Shown in pieces: positions 2,088 to 10,388 of a stretch of DNA of 64,000 nt (the first letter of the stretch is position 1; the number at the start of each line of letters is the position of its first letter). Source of the DNA: Bryocella elongata. GTDB taxonomy: Bacteria; Acidobacteriota; Terriglobia; Terriglobales; Acidobacteriaceae. Where the stretch lies: NCBI RefSeq assembly GCF_900108185.1, contig NZ_FNVA01000007.1:186001-250000 (forward strand), in the 5' to 3' direction. The notes below the pieces were generated by a model. That model saw only the letters and a program-made list of their open reading frames with translations, had not been told where the DNA came from and ran no database searches. A program made the position numbers and the translations under genes.

Positions 2088-2951
2088 ATGACCTCGCTGT
2101 TCTTGCAACGCTTCCTCAAATCCTCTTCTTTGCTCTTGATCGCTACCCCAGTGCTGCTCGTGTCCGCCTCCACAGCATCGGCCCAGGACTCCGCCTCCCG
2201 GAGCTTCGCTCCGCAGACATCGTCAACGTTCCAGGCACGTTCCACCTCGATGCAGGAGCTGGCGTTGGCGACATCCCCCTTCGCTGCCTCGGTCCGGAAC
2301 GACGCACCTGAAGCAGAGGCGCTCCCCGATGCGCCAGAGCCGGCTGGATATCGTTCGGAAACACGCAGCTCTGCGCACATCGCCCCGCTCTACACCAAGG
2401 ACATCTGGGCGGGCTGGCAGGCCCAGCCGCTGCGTCCGCGGGACAAGGTCGTCCTCGGCCTCCGCGACCTCTACAGCCTGGGCAACTTTGGTGCGATGTT
2501 CGCCTCTTCGGGCTTCTCGCACCTCACCAATGGCCAGCCGAACTTTGGCACCGATCGCGGCGCCTACGGCCAGCGTCTGGGTGCTGCAGCGCTGCGAGAA
2601 ACCTCCCAGGGACTCTTGACGGATTCGGTCTTTGCGCCGATCCTGCATCAGGATCCCCGTTATTACGTGCTCGGCCCGCAGTATGGCATCGTTCACCGCA
2701 CCTTGTACGCGATCACGCGACCGCTGGTCACGCGATCCGACAGCGGTCGCCAGACTGTCAACGGCTCGCTGCTGCTGGGCTATGGCGCAGCTGCCGTGCT
2801 GACGAACGCGTACTACCCGGCGATCAATCGCAATGCCCGTGATACCGCCATCACCTTCGGTGATTCGCTTGGCGGCTCCGCACTGGGAGCGGTCGTCAGC
2901 GAGTTCGCCGAGCAGGTTCTCGTTGCTGTGCATCTTCGCCGCCCGGAATAA
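2088..2951 (+). CDS. Secreted protein, acidobacterial family with H-x-DPRYY motif (paralogue 1)
   Basis: A 287-residue protein with a signal peptide (hydrophobic LLLIATPVLLVSA, cleavage near ASTASAQ) and an LPDAP motif at residues 79-83. The mature part carries a GNFGAMFASSG stretch, the motif HQDPRYY, and Gly/Ala-rich segments (LLLGYGAAAVLTNAYYP, GGSALGAVVSEF) that could be membrane-associated or barrel-forming. I do not recognise a named domain. The next gene downstream encodes a diverged paralogue with the corresponding HEDPRYH motif. The start was set at the ATG at 2088, ahead of the signal peptide; the frame extends further upstream without signal character. Confidence 0.7.
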   Translation: MTSLFLQRFLKSSSLLLIATPVLLVSASTASAQDSASRSFAPQTSSTFQARSTSMQELALATSPFAASVRNDAPEAEALPDAPEPAGYRSETRSSAHIAPLYTKDIWAGWQAQPLRPRDKVVLGLRDLYSLGNFGAMFASSGFSHLTNGQPNFGTDRGAYGQRLGAAALRETSQGLLTDSVFAPILHQDPRYYVLGPQYGIVHRTLYAITRPLVTRSDSGRQTVNGSLLLGYGAAAVLTNAYYPAINRNARDTAITFGDSLGGSALGAVVSEFAEQVLVAVHLRRPE

Positions 2952-3108
2952 AACCTTCCGGGAGACGAAACCTCAGCAATTGAAAACAGCGTCAGAATGG
3001 CATCACCGGCTTTGCCGTTATAGGTTGGGTGGCGAGAAAGTTCGCCGATATTCGGTTCTTGTAAGGCTGCGCGAGCGTCGCGCGGTCAGGGAGCGGGTCA
3101 ACAGGGAG

Positions 3109-4134
3109 ATGGCGCGGATCCGCTGGCAGTCGTCAGAGACCGTTGGGCTGAAGGTGTGCGTGGTCACGTGCGCCTCCGTCAGCCTGCTCTTCTGCTGCAG
3201 CCGGGGCCACGCCCAGGCGCTTCCTGACGCTCCGGGCTTCCTCCTGGCCCGCTATGACAGCGCACCTTCCGTGGCAGTTCCGCCTCGCGTGGAGGTCCTC
3301 CCGGACTCGACGTCCGCTTCTTCCGATCGCGACGCCGATTTTGACCCCCTCGCCGTCGTTCGCGCGGCCGGCCAGAATGGCGAGACCCAGCTCCATGGCA
3401 TGGAACAGAAGGCCCCGGCGTTGCCACCGCCCACGGGCTGCGTCAGCTTCCGCACCACCGCTCCCCAGGCGCCTGGGGTCGATCCGGAGAACCAGGGCGA
3501 CCTGCTGGCGCTGCCCCACTGCGAGAACCCGATCCAGTACATCGTCACCGAGCGATCTCGGCCGCTCAGCTCCCGTGAAAAGGGCGACCTCGCGATCAAG
3601 GACTTCATCGACCCGTTCAATATCCTCGTCTTGACCGCTGGCGCGGGCTTCTCCATCGCGGCCAACTCCCACTCCGCCTACGGCCCGGGGTTCAGTGGCT
3701 GGGGCAAGCTCACCGGATACAGCTTCGTGGAGGATGCGCAGGGCGAGTTCATCGGCACCTACATGATCTCGTCGCTGGCGCATGAGGACCCGCGCTACCA
3801 CCGCATGCCTGAGGCTTCCGTTCGCCACCGCATCGGCCACGCGCTCATCCACACCCTGTGGACCCAGCATGACGATGGCCGCCCGATGCTGAACTTCGAA
3901 ACCCTGCTCACCTACCCGGCCAGCGCCGAGCTCTCGAACCTCTACGTCCCCGGCGTGCAGACCGATGCGAAGTCGACCGCCCGCCGCGTCGGGATCGGGC
4001 TGGCCACAGATCCGGTCAGCAACCTCATCGCAGAGTTCCTGCCCGACTTCGCCAAACGCATTCACGTCCGCGTGGTCTTCATGCAGCAGATCCTGAACCA
4101 GGTAGCGAACGGCGCACCCGCGGTGATGCAGTAG
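3109..4134 (+). CDS. Secreted protein, acidobacterial family with H-x-DPRYH motif (paralogue 2)
   Basis: A 341-residue protein with a signal peptide (VCVVTCASVSLLFCC, likely cleavage after SRGHAQA) immediately followed by LPDAP. The C-terminal two thirds aligns by eye with the previous gene: DPFNILVLTAGAGFSIA, SLAHEDPRYHRMP, LLTYPASAELSNLYVP and a closing VSNLIAEFLPDFAKR. No catalytic motif is evident. The ATG at 3109 has AGGGAG directly abutting it, which is too close for a normal ribosome site, so the true start may lie upstream; the frame remains open to 2833, where it would overlap the previous gene. The gene ends just before the octamer repeat and terminator at 4148-4321. Confidence 0.65.
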   Translation: MARIRWQSSETVGLKVCVVTCASVSLLFCCSRGHAQALPDAPGFLLARYDSAPSVAVPPRVEVLPDSTSASSDRDADFDPLAVVRAAGQNGETQLHGMEQKAPALPPPTGCVSFRTTAPQAPGVDPENQGDLLALPHCENPIQYIVTERSRPLSSREKGDLAIKDFIDPFNILVLTAGAGFSIAANSHSAYGPGFSGWGKLTGYSFVEDAQGEFIGTYMISSLAHEDPRYHRMPEASVRHRIGHALIHTLWTQHDDGRPMLNFETLLTYPASAELSNLYVPGVQTDAKSTARRVGIGLATDPVSNLIAEFLPDFAKRIHVRVVFMQQILNQVANGAPAVMQ

Positions 4135-4327: not shown

Positions 4328-7300
4328 TTAGAACGTTGTCGCCACCGTGAACCGGAAGGTCTTTCGGGGTTCGCGGAGGATGTAATCCGCGCCGTACAGC
4401 TGGATGACCTGCTGGTAGCTGTACAGACCGGCGCCGGTGTTCGGGAAGAAGTTCTGCATGCAGAGCGTCTGTCCGGCGGCGCAGGTGTTGGGCACTGCCA
4501 GCTCCTGCGGCAGGTCCTTGTACAGGCGGAGCGGGTTGTAGGCGTAGAAGATGCGGAACGGAGCGTTGACGATCGGCAGGATGACCTGCAGTTCGGCGCC
4601 GTTCGACATACGCGGTACGAAGTTCGTTCCCGGCACCGTCTTCAGGTACAGCGGGAAGGTTACCTTCTGGCCGCCGAAGCAGTCGCCGTTCACGATCTGG
4701 GGGCAGCCATACAGCGGGCTGTTGATCGTCGAAAGGCCAAGCTCGGACTGGCGAAGCTGACCGGTCTGCGAGTTGAAGGTGAGACCGAAGTCGGTGAAGA
4801 AGGCGAAGGTCACCTGGCTCACGATCGGAATGCGGTACTCCACGTTCGAGGTGAACGAGGTATCGCCGCCGATGGAAGCGAGACGATAGACCGGGATCGG
4901 GATCGAGACGTTGCCCAGCTGCGGATTGGAAGGATCGCGCGGGGTCAGTGAACCGTCCGGATTGGTGAGGTTGAAGCTCACCTTGGTCGGGATGAACGTG
5001 TAAGGCGACGACGAGCGAATGTCGAAGCCACGAACGTCGTTCTCGCCACCGCCGTAGATACGCGCCATTGGCGGCGCCACTTCGCCGCCGAAGCCACCAA
5101 CGGTGGAGAACAGCACGCGGTAGCCGAGAACGTTGTGTCCCTCGCGGTTGACCTTGAGGCCCTTCATTGGGAAGAACTGACGCCAGGCCACCGTGGGAGC
5201 GTAGTACTTGGTGTTTCCGCCCACGCCTGCCAGCTGGAAGGCGATGTTCAAGTCCTTGCCGCTGTGCGGTCCTACGCCGCGATCCAGCGTCGAGAAGCTG
5301 AAGCTGGGCGTGACGATCGAGCTGATGATGCCCGAGAGCTGGCTCGTGCCGGCGATGCCGGAGCGGAAGGCCAGGGTCTCGAAGACGTCACGCGTGTTGG
5401 AGTTGAATGTCGTGATGCCCGACCGCGACAGCGAGTAGCTGAGACCGATACGAGCCACACCCGAGCGCCGGAACAGGCCACGCAGCGCCGACGAGGTGGA
5501 GATCGTCAGGCCAGTCGAAGACTGGTTGTAGTTCGTCAGCAGAGACTGCTGCGCGTTGGTCAGGTTCGCACTCTGGCCGTTCGCGATGGCGTAGCTCTTG
5601 GCCGGGTTGTAGTCGAACTTGGTGGCAAACAGCTGCACGCCCAGCGAAATCGGCTTGTTCTTCAGGTACGGCTCGTTGAAGCCGATGCTGACGCGGCGGG
5701 AAAGATCGCCGAGGTTGCCGTTCACCGAAAGCGTTTCGCCCAGGCCGAGGAAGTTGTTCGTCTCGTACTGCACGCCGAGGAACGAACCCGACTGGCCCGA
5801 GATGCCGCCGTTCAGACCGATGGAGTTCTTGCCCTTCTCGCGAAGCTTTACGAGGAGGTCCACCGTCCCGAGGTCGACGTTCTGGTGCGTCTCCACGTCC
5901 TGGTCGCTCTTCAGCGTCTCGAAGTAGCTCAGCTGGTTCAAGCGCAGCAGCGAGAGATCGAGCAGACGGGAGTTGTATACCTGGCCTTCTTCGATCAGCA
6001 TCTCGCGGCGGATGACCTTGTCGCGGGTGATCGTATTGCCGGTGAACTCGATGCGCGAGACATAGAACTGCTTGCCTTCGTCGATATCGATGTTCAGGTA
6101 GATCAGCTTCTTGGCTTCGTCGAACGTGGGCGCCGGGGTCCCGATGAACTGGATGTAGCCGTACTCGCCGTAGGACTTGCGCAGCTGATCGAGGCCCTTG
6201 GAGAAGATGGTGGCGTTGAAGATCTCGCCATCCTTGTTCGCAAACTGAGCACGCAGGGCCTTGTTGTTGTTCAGGGCCTTGTTGCCAGAGAAGGTGATGC
6301 CGCCGAGCTTGTAGCGCTCACCCTCTTCGATCGGGATCAGGATGTCGACGCGCTTGCCGGTGGAGGGCCGCAGGGTGAAGGGGTTCACGCCGCCGGCGTT
6401 GCGGACGTTGGTCTGCGGCTCGCCGGTGGTGGCCTTGAAGTAGCCACGCTCGCGGTACGCCTGGCGTACGCGCTCGGCATCTTCGTCCAGCTTGGAGGCG
6501 TCGAAGGTGCGCGGGAAGATGCTCTCGAGGATCAGCGAGTGCGGAATGCCGATCGGCTTGAGGTTCTTCATCGATTCGATCAGAACGCGCGGGCTGACAT
6601 CCTGATTGCCCTGGAACTGGATCTTGCCAACCTTGACCGTCGGACCTTCCTTCACATTGAAGGTCAGCGCCACGGCGGCGGGAGGAATCGTCTTGATCTC
6701 GGTACGGATCGTCGCGAACTGGTGGCCGTGCTCACCGAGCATCTGCTGCAGCACCACCTCGGCGCGCTTCACCTTGGTCGGGTCGTACTGGCTTTCGACG
6801 GTGAGGCCGACCTTCTCCTTCTTGAAGCGGTCGAGCACGTCGGAGACGGAGACGGCGTTCAGGCCCTTGTAGTTGATCTCGCGGATCGTGGGCTTTTCGC
6901 GGACGTACACCTCGAGCTGGATACAGGAAGGCGTATCCACGCGCTCGATGCGCACATCATCGAAGTAGCCGGTGTTCCAGAGCGAGTTGAAGTCACGCTC
7001 AAGGATCGTCGAATCAAAAGGATCGCCCTGGCGTGAATACAGACGCGCGAGGATCGATTCCTTCGGAATCCGGCGATTGCCGATCACCTGGGTTGCACAG
7101 AGAATCTGCGGGGTCGCCGAGGCGGCCGAAAACTGGGGGGTCGCCGCAACCTGCGCATGCAGGACGGGCAACAGCGTAAACGCGCCGGCCGAAATCGCAA
7201 AGGCACGCAGGAATGTTCCCGAAAGGACGCTGCTGCGGGGGGCGATTCGGCTCGAGCGCGGGCGCACAGCCTGGGTCGTAGAGTTCACGGAGCTTACGCT

Positions 7301-7429
7301 CACTCGCGTTCCGGTAAAAATAACCACACCCTCACTGCTTCTTGGATCTGCTGCCCTGTGTGAAAACGAAGGCGGAGCTTTGATTATAGGCGACGGGCGC
7401 AACCGCGGGCGACCGATCCGGTTGGTCAT
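4328..7429 (-). CDS. bamA: Outer membrane protein assembly factor BamA
   Basis: A 1033-residue Omp85-family protein that inserts beta-barrel proteins into the outer membrane. A signal sequence (FAISAGAFTLLPVLHAQ) precedes five POTRA-like units: QVIGNRRIPKESI, then EINYKGLNAVS, KIQFQGNQDVS, GITFSGNKALN and RIEFTGNTITR. The C-terminal barrel has the diagnostic L6 motif VRGF within GGGENDVRGFD and ends in Phe. The ATG at 7429 leaves about 75 residues ahead of the signal core; GTG codons at 7303 or 7288 would give a more usual signal peptide and are plausible true starts. It lies 164 bases downstream of the exosortase gene in the same direction. Confidence 0.95.
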   Translation of the reverse strand: MTNRIGRPRLRPSPIIKAPPSFSHRAADPRSSEGVVIFTGTRVSVSSVNSTTQAVRPRSSRIAPRSSVLSGTFLRAFAISAGAFTLLPVLHAQVAATPQFSAASATPQILCATQVIGNRRIPKESILARLYSRQGDPFDSTILERDFNSLWNTGYFDDVRIERVDTPSCIQLEVYVREKPTIREINYKGLNAVSVSDVLDRFKKEKVGLTVESQYDPTKVKRAEVVLQQMLGEHGHQFATIRTEIKTIPPAAVALTFNVKEGPTVKVGKIQFQGNQDVSPRVLIESMKNLKPIGIPHSLILESIFPRTFDASKLDEDAERVRQAYRERGYFKATTGEPQTNVRNAGGVNPFTLRPSTGKRVDILIPIEEGERYKLGGITFSGNKALNNNKALRAQFANKDGEIFNATIFSKGLDQLRKSYGEYGYIQFIGTPAPTFDEAKKLIYLNIDIDEGKQFYVSRIEFTGNTITRDKVIRREMLIEEGQVYNSRLLDLSLLRLNQLSYFETLKSDQDVETHQNVDLGTVDLLVKLREKGKNSIGLNGGISGQSGSFLGVQYETNNFLGLGETLSVNGNLGDLSRRVSIGFNEPYLKNKPISLGVQLFATKFDYNPAKSYAIANGQSANLTNAQQSLLTNYNQSSTGLTISTSSALRGLFRRSGVARIGLSYSLSRSGITTFNSNTRDVFETLAFRSGIAGTSQLSGIISSIVTPSFSFSTLDRGVGPHSGKDLNIAFQLAGVGGNTKYYAPTVAWRQFFPMKGLKVNREGHNVLGYRVLFSTVGGFGGEVAPPMARIYGGGENDVRGFDIRSSSPYTFIPTKVSFNLTNPDGSLTPRDPSNPQLGNVSIPIPVYRLASIGGDTSFTSNVEYRIPIVSQVTFAFFTDFGLTFNSQTGQLRQSELGLSTINSPLYGCPQIVNGDCFGGQKVTFPLYLKTVPGTNFVPRMSNGAELQVILPIVNAPFRIFYAYNPLRLYKDLPQELAVPNTCAAGQTLCMQNFFPNTGAGLYSYQQVIQLYGADYILREPRKTFRFTVATTF

Positions 7430-7593
7430 CCGGGTGCCTCAGATTGCGTTCGGCCCGAGTATGGCTCGGGTCCGGCTCACATCCTGCCCCAATACCGCCT
7501 GGGGCGCGGACCAATCGCCTGTTGGTTGGACAATTACCTTGAGGATCGACGTGTGGCCGAGGCAGAAGAAAGCCGCAAACCCGCCAAACCCTC

Positions 7594-9249
7594 TCAGCGG
7601 TGGCTGTAGGGCTTGCTCAGCTCCACGAGGTTTGCCTGGCGAAGGAAGTCGCGCAGGACTACGGACAGCGTTGCCGCCGTCTCCGATGGCTCAGAGCTGG
7701 TGTCGCCTGTGTCGATGCGAAGAAGAACCGGTACCGGTCGCGACGCATCTGCCTCGAGCGGAAGCCCCCGGTGTGGGCGGGCATAGACCATGGTGACGTG
7801 ATTGGACGACGTGTTGAACTCGCTGCAGGTGCCTCCGTCGCAGACGGAAGAGGCCTCGAGCCACTGCATCGTGCCGCTCATGTAGGTGAATCCGGAAAAT
7901 TGTGTCTTCCCGCCGGGGGTGTCGGCGTCGATCTGGCCATGCCACGCAGGATCCTGCCCGCGGGTCATGTGGCAGACTTCAACGTCGTGAACGTCCAGCA
8001 CGGGCGAAAACCCAAGCTTGATGTGCGGAGAGCCTGACTCCGGCCCGGCGTATTCGCCCCACGTGTACACCACGACGCCGTCCAGCAGGGAATCGTCATA
8101 GCGGTCCACGAGGCGGTAGTTGCCAATGTGATCGGGCAGCCGCGGGATCACCCGCGCCGTCACCGGCTCCTCCGCGTGAAGATGCGTGTACTCCGCGGCG
8201 AACAGGACGCCGAGGACGATCAACGCGGCGCCACGGATCAGGAACGGCCGCAGCGGTGTCGTGTCCGGAGCAGAAGGCTCCGCAGCAGGCCGCAGGTCCG
8301 AAGGCTTCTCCCTTAGGTAGTTCACCACCGTGAAGAAGATGCCCAGCGCAATCATGAACAGCGTGCCGCCGATCAGGTAGTCGGCCATCTCGCCCTTGGT
8401 TTGCAGCCACGGATAGGGCAGCGCGATCTTGTAGTAGACGACCAGCAGGCAGAGCCGCAGCAGGTTGAACAGGTAGCCCAGCATCACGGAGCCCAGCACT
8501 ACCGGCGCATAGACGAACCAGCGGAACCGGTAGACGTAGCTGACCACGATCGCGGCCAAGCCCAGCGTGATCGATCCGCGAATGCCGTTGCAGCCCGGCG
8601 CGATGAACATGCCGAAGTTGGGCGTGAACATCAGCCGCAGGCGGTCGGCGGTCAGCGGAGTGCGAAGCAGGTGGGCAAACGAACGCGCCACCTGGGCGGA
8701 GATGTACTGCAGGGGAAGGTCGACGCGGCGGCTGAAGGTCTGCGGCACCGGAATCACAGCCCACATCAGCAGCACAGGAAACCAGCAGCGGCGGAGCAGA
8801 TCACGGCCACCCAGCGCGAGCACCAGGCCAAGCGCATACATCACCGCTACAAGGGGCAGCGGTGGAATCTGCAGAAGCCATCCCTTGTTCACGGTGATGA
8901 CCAGCAGTGTCTGATCGCGAACAAAGACAACCATCGCCCAGAACACCAGCAGAGCAATGCCCCACCAGGTTCCGCGCGTGTTCCAGCCCGCACTTCGCCA
9001 AGCGCGAAGGATCAGGGCAAAGCAGACCAGGGGAATTAGAGCCCCCATGGACTTCAGGTCGTCTGTAAGCCAGAAGTTCGCGAGACGTATCGCCGAAGGC
9101 CATACGAGGAAGCCGGCGGCAATCCAGGAGAGCCCTGCGGTTCCCAGGATGAGAGAAAGACGAAGAGACGAGGGTAGGGATTCAGCGCGGCCGGAGGGCT
9201 CTGGCTGACGCGCCGCCGCCCAATCCATCGCGCTGTGGGATTCTGACAC
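7594..9249 (-). CDS. Exosortase (XrtJ-like) fused to an EpsI-type C-terminal domain
   Basis: A 551-residue polytopic membrane protein. Residues 30-310 contain about eight hydrophobic segments with the exosortase catalytic Cys motif APGCNGIRG (Cys220) and the downstream Arg (LLRLC, Arg265). Residues 330-551 form a periplasmic EpsI-like domain (IPRLPDHIGNYRLVDRY, then EVCHMTRG). Exosortases cleave short C-terminal motif-TM-basic sorting signals and transfer the protein to the envelope or an exopolysaccharide. The usual third catalytic residue, His, is not obvious; ADYLIGG occupies that region. The small gene directly upstream encodes the likely substrate. The XrtJ assignment is from family knowledge and the partner, not from a search. 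Confidence 0.85.
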   Translation of the reverse strand: MSESHSAMDWAAARQPEPSGRAESLPSSLRLSLILGTAGLSWIAAGFLVWPSAIRLANFWLTDDLKSMGALIPLVCFALILRAWRSAGWNTRGTWWGIALLVFWAMVVFVRDQTLLVITVNKGWLLQIPPLPLVAVMYALGLVLALGGRDLLRRCWFPVLLMWAVIPVPQTFSRRVDLPLQYISAQVARSFAHLLRTPLTADRLRLMFTPNFGMFIAPGCNGIRGSITLGLAAIVVSYVYRFRWFVYAPVVLGSVMLGYLFNLLRLCLLVVYYKIALPYPWLQTKGEMADYLIGGTLFMIALGIFFTVVNYLREKPSDLRPAAEPSAPDTTPLRPFLIRGAALIVLGVLFAAEYTHLHAEEPVTARVIPRLPDHIGNYRLVDRYDDSLLDGVVVYTWGEYAGPESGSPHIKLGFSPVLDVHDVEVCHMTRGQDPAWHGQIDADTPGGKTQFSGFTYMSGTMQWLEASSVCDGGTCSEFNTSSNHVTMVYARPHRGLPLEADASRPVPVLLRIDTGDTSSEPSETAATLSVVLRDFLRQANLVELSKPYSHR

Positions 9250-9315
9250 GGGACACCTGCAGGTAGCAGGGCCTAACCAGCAGGCATTGAAGCCTGCGAG
9301 CTAAGCCCAGTCGGT

Positions 9316-9528
9316 TTACTTCGTGCGCGGCTGACGCCGTGCGCGGAAGCGACGACGCAGCTCAGACAGGCCGTAAGCTCCGCTCGCCATTCCCGCAAGA
9401 ATCACGGTTGGGTTTTCCGGAGAGCTGTCCGCGCATCCTCCCACGCTGTGCTGTGCCAGAGCGGGATGGGCAAGTACACACATGGTGAGAAGTACAGCAG
9501 CGACTGCAAAAAGCTTTTTCGACGACAT
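9316..9528 (-). CDS. Small TM-motif-TM protein, candidate exosortase substrate
   Basis: A 70-residue protein with an N-terminal signal peptide (VAAVLLTMCVLAHPALAQ), a short mature stretch with CADSSPENPTVILAG, a second hydrophobic run (MASGAYGL) and a basic tail (RRRFRARR). This order (signal, motif, TM, Arg-rich end) is that of exosortase sorting signals, and it fits the tiny XrtJ-associated TM-motif-TM family known from acidobacteria. GAGGAA lies 8 bases upstream of the ATG. The gene is 66 bases upstream of the exosortase gene and shares its promoter at 9655-9684, so enzyme and substrate are probably co-expressed. Confidence 0.8.
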   Translation of the reverse strand: MSSKKLFAVAAVLLTMCVLAHPALAQHSVGGCADSSPENPTVILAGMASGAYGLSELRRRFRARRQPRTK

Positions 9529-9654
9529 CGGACGGTTCCTCGGGTGGGGAGCTTGTGACGGCCCCCGTGGTCGGAGTCATCTCTAGCCACAAAAGAGTCG
9601 TGCCCCCTTCGGTATCAGGTGGCGGCGGATCTTCGGGAGCCAAGAAGTGTCTCC

Positions 9655-9684
9655 ATACTAGGGAGCCCCCGAAATCAAAGTCAA
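9655..9684 (-). promoter_or_regulatory. Sigma70-type promoter of the exosortase/small-substrate operon
   Basis: On the minus strand TTGACT (9684-9679), an 18-base spacer and TAGTAT (9660-9655). A start near 9648 would leave a ~120-base leader before the ATG at 9528. The leader can pair TTGTG with CACAA shortly before the start, but I recognise no known riboswitch. Confidence 0.55.
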
Positions 9685-9803
9685 GAAAAGTCATAGGGTA
9701 GTCATCTCTTTCTTCTCAAAGGGCCTCTCTTTGTGAGGCGCCCTCCTCGGAAGTGAGCGGGAAAGGTACAATCGTCGGTGGAACAGAGGAGGAATTCGCC
9801 CCC

Positions 9804-10388
9804 ATGGCATCGGTAATGGCAAGCATCGAGGCGCTGAAGGGAATCAACGACCAGCTGCGCAAGCGGATGGAGAAGACCGTTGACGACTATGGCGCCCACC
9901 TGGTGAGCGTCCGCACCGGCCGAGCCTCCGTCCACATGCTGGACGGGATCAAGGTCGACTACTACGGTTCGGAGGTGCCCATCTCGCAGGTGGCGCAGAT
10001 CATGACTCCGGAAGCCCAGCTCATCGAGGTCAAGCCCTGGGAGCAGCCCATGGTCGCCGCCATCGAGAAGGCAATCCGGACCTCGGGCAAGGGCTTCAAC
10101 CCCATGCACGATGGCAAGCTGATCCGCGTGCCCGTGCCGCCCATGAACGAAGAGCGCCGCCGCGACGCCGTCAAGCAGCTCGCCGGCGTCCTGGAAGACC
10201 ACAAGACCTCCATTCGCAACATCCGTCGCGATGGCAACGACGCCGTCAAGAAGGCTGCCAAGGATAAGCAGATCTCCGCCGACGACGAAAAGCGCGCCAA
10301 CGAAGAGATCCAGCAGCTCACCGATCAGGAGATCAAGCGGATCGAGGAGATGTTCAAGAACAAGGAAAAGGAAGTCATGACGATCTGA
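9804..10388 (+). CDS. frr: Ribosome recycling factor
   Basis: A 194-residue protein, close to the usual ~185. RRF hallmarks are present: RTGRASVHMLDGIKVDYYGSE, MTPEAQLIEVKPWE, an IRVPVPPMNEERRRD segment and the C-terminal helix (EIQQLTDQEIKRIEEMF). RRF works with EF-G to split post-termination ribosomes in the cytoplasm. I set the start at the ATG at 9804, 11 bases after AGAGGAGG; another ATG follows 12 bases later. A TACAAT at about 9765 could be the -10 of its promoter. It converges on folP across a shared hairpin. Confidence 0.95.
   Translation: MASVMASIEALKGINDQLRKRMEKTVDDYGAHLVSVRTGRASVHMLDGIKVDYYGSEVPISQVAQIMTPEAQLIEVKPWEQPMVAAIEKAIRTSGKGFNPMHDGKLIRVPVPPMNEERRRDAVKQLAGVLEDHKTSIRNIRRDGNDAVKKAAKDKQISADDEKRANEEIQQLTDQEIKRIEEMFKNKEKEVMTI

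Follow-up and report, generated by a model that had tools for sequence, protein, structure and literature searches.

The window analysed here, a stretch of 64,000 nucleotides from Bryocella elongata (contig NZ_FNVA01000007.1, positions 186,001 to 250,000), encodes an exosortase J (XrtJ) and, upstream of it, a small PExPT-CTERM protein (Table 1). We think it reasonably likely that this locus is a genuine sorting pair that serves surface lipoproteins and polysaccharide export through the mechanism proposed below. The exosortase J/PExPT-CTERM pair is already a known family, and a literature search turned up no publication that names exosortase J or PExPT-CTERM, and none on Granulicella with an exosortase. 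To our knowledge, there has been no experiment on any PExPT substrate, and we know of no XrtJ substrate for which processing has been shown. Comparison with relatives yields a testable picture: a tiny product with a conserved cysteine is predicted, and the enzyme has Asp for His in one motif as well as an invariant CX4C. The operon partners that are conserved, lipoprotein propellers and polysaccharide export, indicate where a role should be sought, and the neighbouring bamA is removed as a likely function of the pair.

Table 1. Features of the PExPT-xrtJ locus (positions within the window)
Feature	Position	Strand	Basis
xrtJ, exosortase J, 551 aa, GTG start	7594..9249	-	TIGR04199 and PF09721 matches
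PExPT-CTERM small protein, 70 aa, ATG start, putative cognate XrtJ substrate	9316..9528	-	TIGR04200 match
Sigma-70-type promoter TTGACT-18-TAGTAT of the PExPT-xrtJ unit	9655..9684	-	Consensus scan and conserved -35
bamA, longest ORF, neighbour at the probable insertion site (context)	4328..7429	-	TIGR03303, 423 bits
frr, ribosome recycling factor, other side of the probable insertion site (context)	9753..10388	+	TIGR00496, 204 bits

The exosortase and its small partner

An initial annotation of this DNA had described two minus-strand reading frames, the longer carrying Cys220 and the shorter a signal peptide, SPENPT, a hydrophobic stretch and an Arg tail, and had likened them to the acidobacterial XrtJ system. 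Both frames are as described and the likeness holds. The enzyme matches TIGR04199 with 616 bits over residues 46-548 (curated cutoff 200) and PF09721 with 120 bits (cutoff 25.7), and the small protein matches TIGR04200, the model named as the target of XrtJ, with 57.5 bits (cutoff 40). The longer gene is an exosortase J, with no difference that would bar it from this known family, and the PExPT-CTERM gene expected near it lies 66 nt upstream, measured between the two ORFs. The promoter that had been proposed for the unit is also real, being the only such site in positions 7300-9900 (0.4 expected in shuffled sequence by the same consensus scan), with a -35 element, TTGACTT, that is near-invariant upstream of 20 orthologous bamA-type PExPT genes despite the divergence of the sequence around it.

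XrtJ comprises a membrane exosortase core (residues about 44-312), an extra membrane helix (334-360) and a periplasmic C-terminal domain (about 364-546). C220xG222, N262xxR265, D290xxxG294, H421, C470 and C475 are invariant in 65 of 65 relatives, the last two forming a CX4C pair in the periplasmic domain. The motifs described for EpsH are Cys-x-Gly, Asn-x-x-Arg and His-x-x-x-Gly, the third of which was reported as invariant in that protein (PMC1569441). XrtJ has the first two of these exosortase superfamily motifs, whereas D290xxxG294 stands in place of the third in all 65 relatives; the whole profile still puts XrtJ in PF09721 and TIGR04199, and DxxxG is therefore characteristic of the XrtJ family. 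With the EpsH/XrtA exosortases of PEP-CTERM proteins XrtJ thus shares two catalytic motifs and a tripartite C-terminal substrate signal, but differs from them in the invariant DxxxG, the fused domain with its CX4C, the tiny substrates and, at this locus, the lack of adjoining polysaccharide genes.

The C-terminal domain had been called EpsI-like. XrtJ resembles XrtD, XrtW and XrtT, which have a fused EpsI domain, in joining an exosortase core and a periplasmic domain in one chain, but the likeness of its domain to EpsI shows only in profile comparison (HH E about 1e-4). Pfam and NCBIfam gave no EpsI match for it (TIGR02914/PF11984), and a PF11984 search over 14 genomes gave no convincing match to XrtJ. 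In HH alignments with EpsI (E 1.4e-4 to 3e-4, probability 39-53%) H421 falls on the HSPxxC region of EpsI, while the C470/C475 pair is absent from the EpsI set compared. A remote homology to EpsI is weakly supported by these alignments. The predicted structure of XrtJ has a pLDDT of 86 overall, with a stretch of low confidence at residues 210-220 beside the catalytic cysteine, and neither a sequence search of solved structures nor Foldseek against the PDB (E below 0.001) returned a match. VIA-align placed residues 364-546 against Mog1/PsbP-like proteins, namely DcrB (Z 8.6, rmsd 3.4, 106 residues), SciW (Z 8.3, rmsd 4.2, 122 residues) and the PsbP family (Z about 5-7), with no exosortase or EpsI structure listed; Z scores near 8 are common for models lacking clear matches, so that this likeness is a lead only. 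A second exosortase in the genome of the window (C7:45951-46703, locus L001) belongs to a conventional set, in which EpsI is separate and a gene of polysaccharide-export type lies close by.

Among 398 genomes of the window's bacterial family, TIGR04200 is found in 63 and TIGR04199 in 60; 59 have both, four PExPT only, one XrtJ only and 334 neither (Fisher p 2e-64, for genomes that are related and hence not independent). The small gene accompanies that of the enzyme, as had been supposed: both families occur in 59 of the 64 genomes that have either, and a same-strand PExPT gene lies 106-405 nt upstream in 58 of 73 XrtJ genes. One more pair, in G655, is split by a contig end: L109 has the PExPT gene, near frr/folP, and L163 has XrtJ-bamA. 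The association is not complete: nine of 65 XrtJ genes are without a recognised partner, some of them at contig ends, and three genomes have PExPT genes but no XrtJ that could be found (G648, G470 and G680). Two XrtJ copies without an adjacent PExPT gene lie beside an Oar-like outer-membrane barrel protein (L113 and L131, in G529 and G599). In a sample of the phylum, XrtJ exceeds the cutoff in 17 of 396 genomes, all within the Acidobacteriaceae, the family of the window. A scan of named genomes gave matches over the cutoff in Granulicella (G. mallensis and G. paludicola by title among them), Edaphobacter, Terracidiphilus and other Acidobacteriaceae, and in a few MAGs titled as other groups.

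The 70-residue protein consists of a signal peptide ending AHPALA|Q, the stretch HSVGGCADS, SPENPT, a hydrophobic membrane helix and an Arg-rich tail (RRRFRARRQPRTK). All 56 PExPT proteins compared share this plan, and the pattern GC-x-x-[ST]-P-E-x-P-T recurs in nearly all of them (PENPT 49, PEDPT 4, PEAPT 2, PELPT 1). In 55 of the 56 a cysteine lies four residues ahead of the motif, and a glycine precedes the cysteine in 52; the sole copy with the cysteine five residues before it is the window's own (GCADSSPENPT). The genes for this comparison and for the locus survey were found by motif patterns. These overlooked copies whose tails are atypical, PECPT among them, and such copies were read separately.

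The idea of a single substrate has to be abandoned. A second PExPT gene lies elsewhere in the same genome (C4:1550237-1550398, encoding MKNKRMLQ...AHAIGGCDESPELPTDVLFSFAVAAFGGVELLRRRSSRK); its product has a signal peptide, GCDESPELPT, a hydrophobic stretch and LLRRRSSRK, and scores 35-36.5 bits against TIGR04200, below the cutoff of 40. Relatives have up to seven copies in one genome, and our script's rule counted 48 copies among them that are not adjacent to XrtJ, at least one of which (G655) is a contig-end artefact.

Lipoprotein and polysaccharide-export partners

Clustering of the neighbours of XrtJ loci brought out a recurrent lipoprotein of ~640 residues with NHL repeats. At 33 of 65 loci it follows XrtJ on the downstream side and at four it lies upstream, deep branches of the tree included, at a distance of -47 to +93 nt from XrtJ to the start of the longest ORF; neighbouring genes were called by a simple longest-ORF rule, and starts and gaps are therefore approximate. 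In its structural model a strand-rich N-terminal part and a helical part accompany a propeller, and Foldseek clearly matches the protein to NHL propellers and to virginiamycin B lyase. A surface NHL beta-propeller lipoprotein is the usual genetic partner of the exosortase J pair, and polysaccharide-export genes are that of some substrate copies. The copy in the window belongs to a bamA-adjacent clade and lacks the lipoprotein next door. Several XrtJ loci also carry an Oar-like outer-membrane beta-barrel protein.

The N-terminal domain of the lipoprotein is present in 30 of 30 genomes with XrtJ, compared with seven of 32 with neither gene (p 2e-11), and in all three genomes that have PExPT but no XrtJ that could be found. 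It is absent from G543, the only complete XrtJ-free genome tested of the window's genus. In the other main genus, NHL lipoproteins persist in five of the seven genomes that are XrtJ-free (presence p 0.08, copy number p 0.0007 within that genus), and the association is thus partly one of shared ancestry. Genomes with XrtJ have 2-36 NHL lipoproteins, the genome of the window seven, and its second PExPT gene sits between two of the lipoprotein genes, starting about 10 nt after one. The run of NHL-propeller lipoprotein genes around it spans L090:4302-7797 (G000 C4), where an upstream gene has a similar tail. An alignment of 10 lipoprotein C-termini has a conserved GxAxPxxTP...P tail in which the last proline is invariant.

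That no polysaccharide genes adjoin the pair is correct for this locus but not for the family as a whole. A PECPT subfamily occurs in seven Granulicella-type genomes. In five of these its gene immediately precedes SLBB/Wza and Wzz genes in the same orientation, which links part of the PExPT family with polysaccharide export. A propeller protein linked to an exosortase also has a parallel in ScyF of the cyanobacterial CrtB/PEP-CTERM system (PMC12188702), to whose model NF035926 there is a weak match here; ScyF itself carries the PEP-CTERM signal, whereas in the present system a lipoprotein forms the propeller and the PExPT sequence sits on a tiny protein distinct from it.

These partners admit a reading in which the true clients of XrtJ are the NHL lipoproteins, perhaps through their C-terminal tail, and the small protein has an accessory or regulatory role towards the enzyme. 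The number of lipoprotein copies, their place in XrtJ operons, the invariant tail residues and the PExPT genes that lie beside lipoproteins with no XrtJ next to them would all fit. We regard it as unlikely, however, given that none of the 10 aligned lipoproteins has a PExPT-like motif, a C-terminal membrane helix or a basic tail, and that the full tripartite signal sits on the small protein.

Proposed processing of the PExPT protein

If the small protein is the substrate, as we favour, it would pass through Sec, lose its signal peptide to signal peptidase I near AHPALA|Q, and then stay anchored to the inner membrane through the helix and Arg tail at its C-terminus. XrtJ, acting through Cys220, Arg265 and Asp290 (the last replacing the usual His), would attack the PExPT motif and release the helix. 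Given the short layout of signal peptide, few residues, GCxxSPExPT, helix and Arg tail, the expected remainder is a peptide about 10-16 residues long that carries a single conserved cysteine. This peptide may be released, or may become attached to an acceptor by its new C-terminus. The periplasmic domain of XrtJ, with its CX4C pair and H421, may hold the substrate cysteine or exchange thiols with it. The system would serve surface lipoproteins and polysaccharide export, as indicated by the operon partnership with the NHL lipoprotein and by the PExPT genes that head Wza/Wzz operons; in the genome of the window, the XrtJ pair lies between frr and bamA, and the operon of lipoprotein genes that contains the second PExPT gene is elsewhere. 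Cleavage by XrtJ is putative. Against the proposed explanation count the lack of the HxxxG of EpsH (PMC1569441), the PExPT genes in genomes where no XrtJ was found, the partnerless XrtJ genes and the share of ancestry in the link with NHL lipoproteins.

One case may fit a link between the substrate cysteine and the C-terminal domain: in G403 (L278), a PENPT protein without the cysteine lies beside a short exosortase whose open frame of 312 residues is too short for that domain, and which XrtJ searches at E 1e-30 did not pick up. More tentatively, the short cysteine-bearing peptide could itself be the actual product of XrtJ, made at a Cys-Arg-Asp site with CX4C as a docking domain, and be a tag or anchor shared by NHL lipoproteins and Wza/Wzz export. 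If so, this would be an exosortase that makes a peptide rather than one that sorts a protein.

By analogy with a proposal for MYXO-CTERM proteins, the cysteine of GC-x-x-SPExPT might instead be lipidated and the product be a membrane-anchored lipopeptide. The two families share a conserved cysteine before a membrane helix and an Arg tail, the cysteine precedes the cleavage motif in nearly all PExPT proteins, and in MYXO-CTERM a conserved cysteine is needed for cleavage (PMC11980579). In MYXO-CTERM, though, the cysteine is next to the helix and there is no PExPT motif, whereas in PExPT proteins several residues intervene; the residues before the cysteine form no lipobox in most copies, and the myxosortase is an unrelated CPBP protease, which together make lipidation quite improbable. 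The myxosortase MrtX has the EExxxR and HxxxN motifs of CPBP-type proteases (PMC11980579). XrtJ itself matches exosortase models only, and an identity as a myxosortase was rejected.

The bamA neighbourhood

The initial annotation placed bamA directly after the exosortase gene and raised an outer-membrane link. The two genes are indeed consecutive on the same strand, but the join is loose, at 164 nt to the start of the longest bamA ORF (58-694 nt across relatives), compared with the tight spacing of the NHL partner. The true start of bamA is probably further in than that of the longest ORF; homology in close relatives begins at residue ~7-31. Each of 14 genomes searched has one full-length bamA, with one extra partial match in G084.

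In a tree of 65 XrtJ rows, the 17 that are bamA-adjacent and one truncated at a contig end form a single clade, which indicates that the arrangement arose about once. frr lies directly beside bamA in G543, which is XrtJ-free, and in G663 and G636, where XrtJ is elsewhere. Taken with the single clade, this gene order makes it most likely that the PExPT-xrtJ pair was inserted once into the frr-bamA gap, and the adjacency to bamA is probably incidental, marking the place of insertion. A functional operon of three genes, in which the processed peptide or XrtJ assists BamA in outer-membrane assembly, would account for the same-strand order kept in 17 loci across Granulicella-type genomes, but is highly improbable in view of the single origin, the loose gap, the intact frr-bamA neighbours and the other genomes that have bamA with no XrtJ beside it. 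Elsewhere in the window, a 433-residue ORF without a family match (2833-4134, plus strand) has relatives that recur beside bamA in other genomes.
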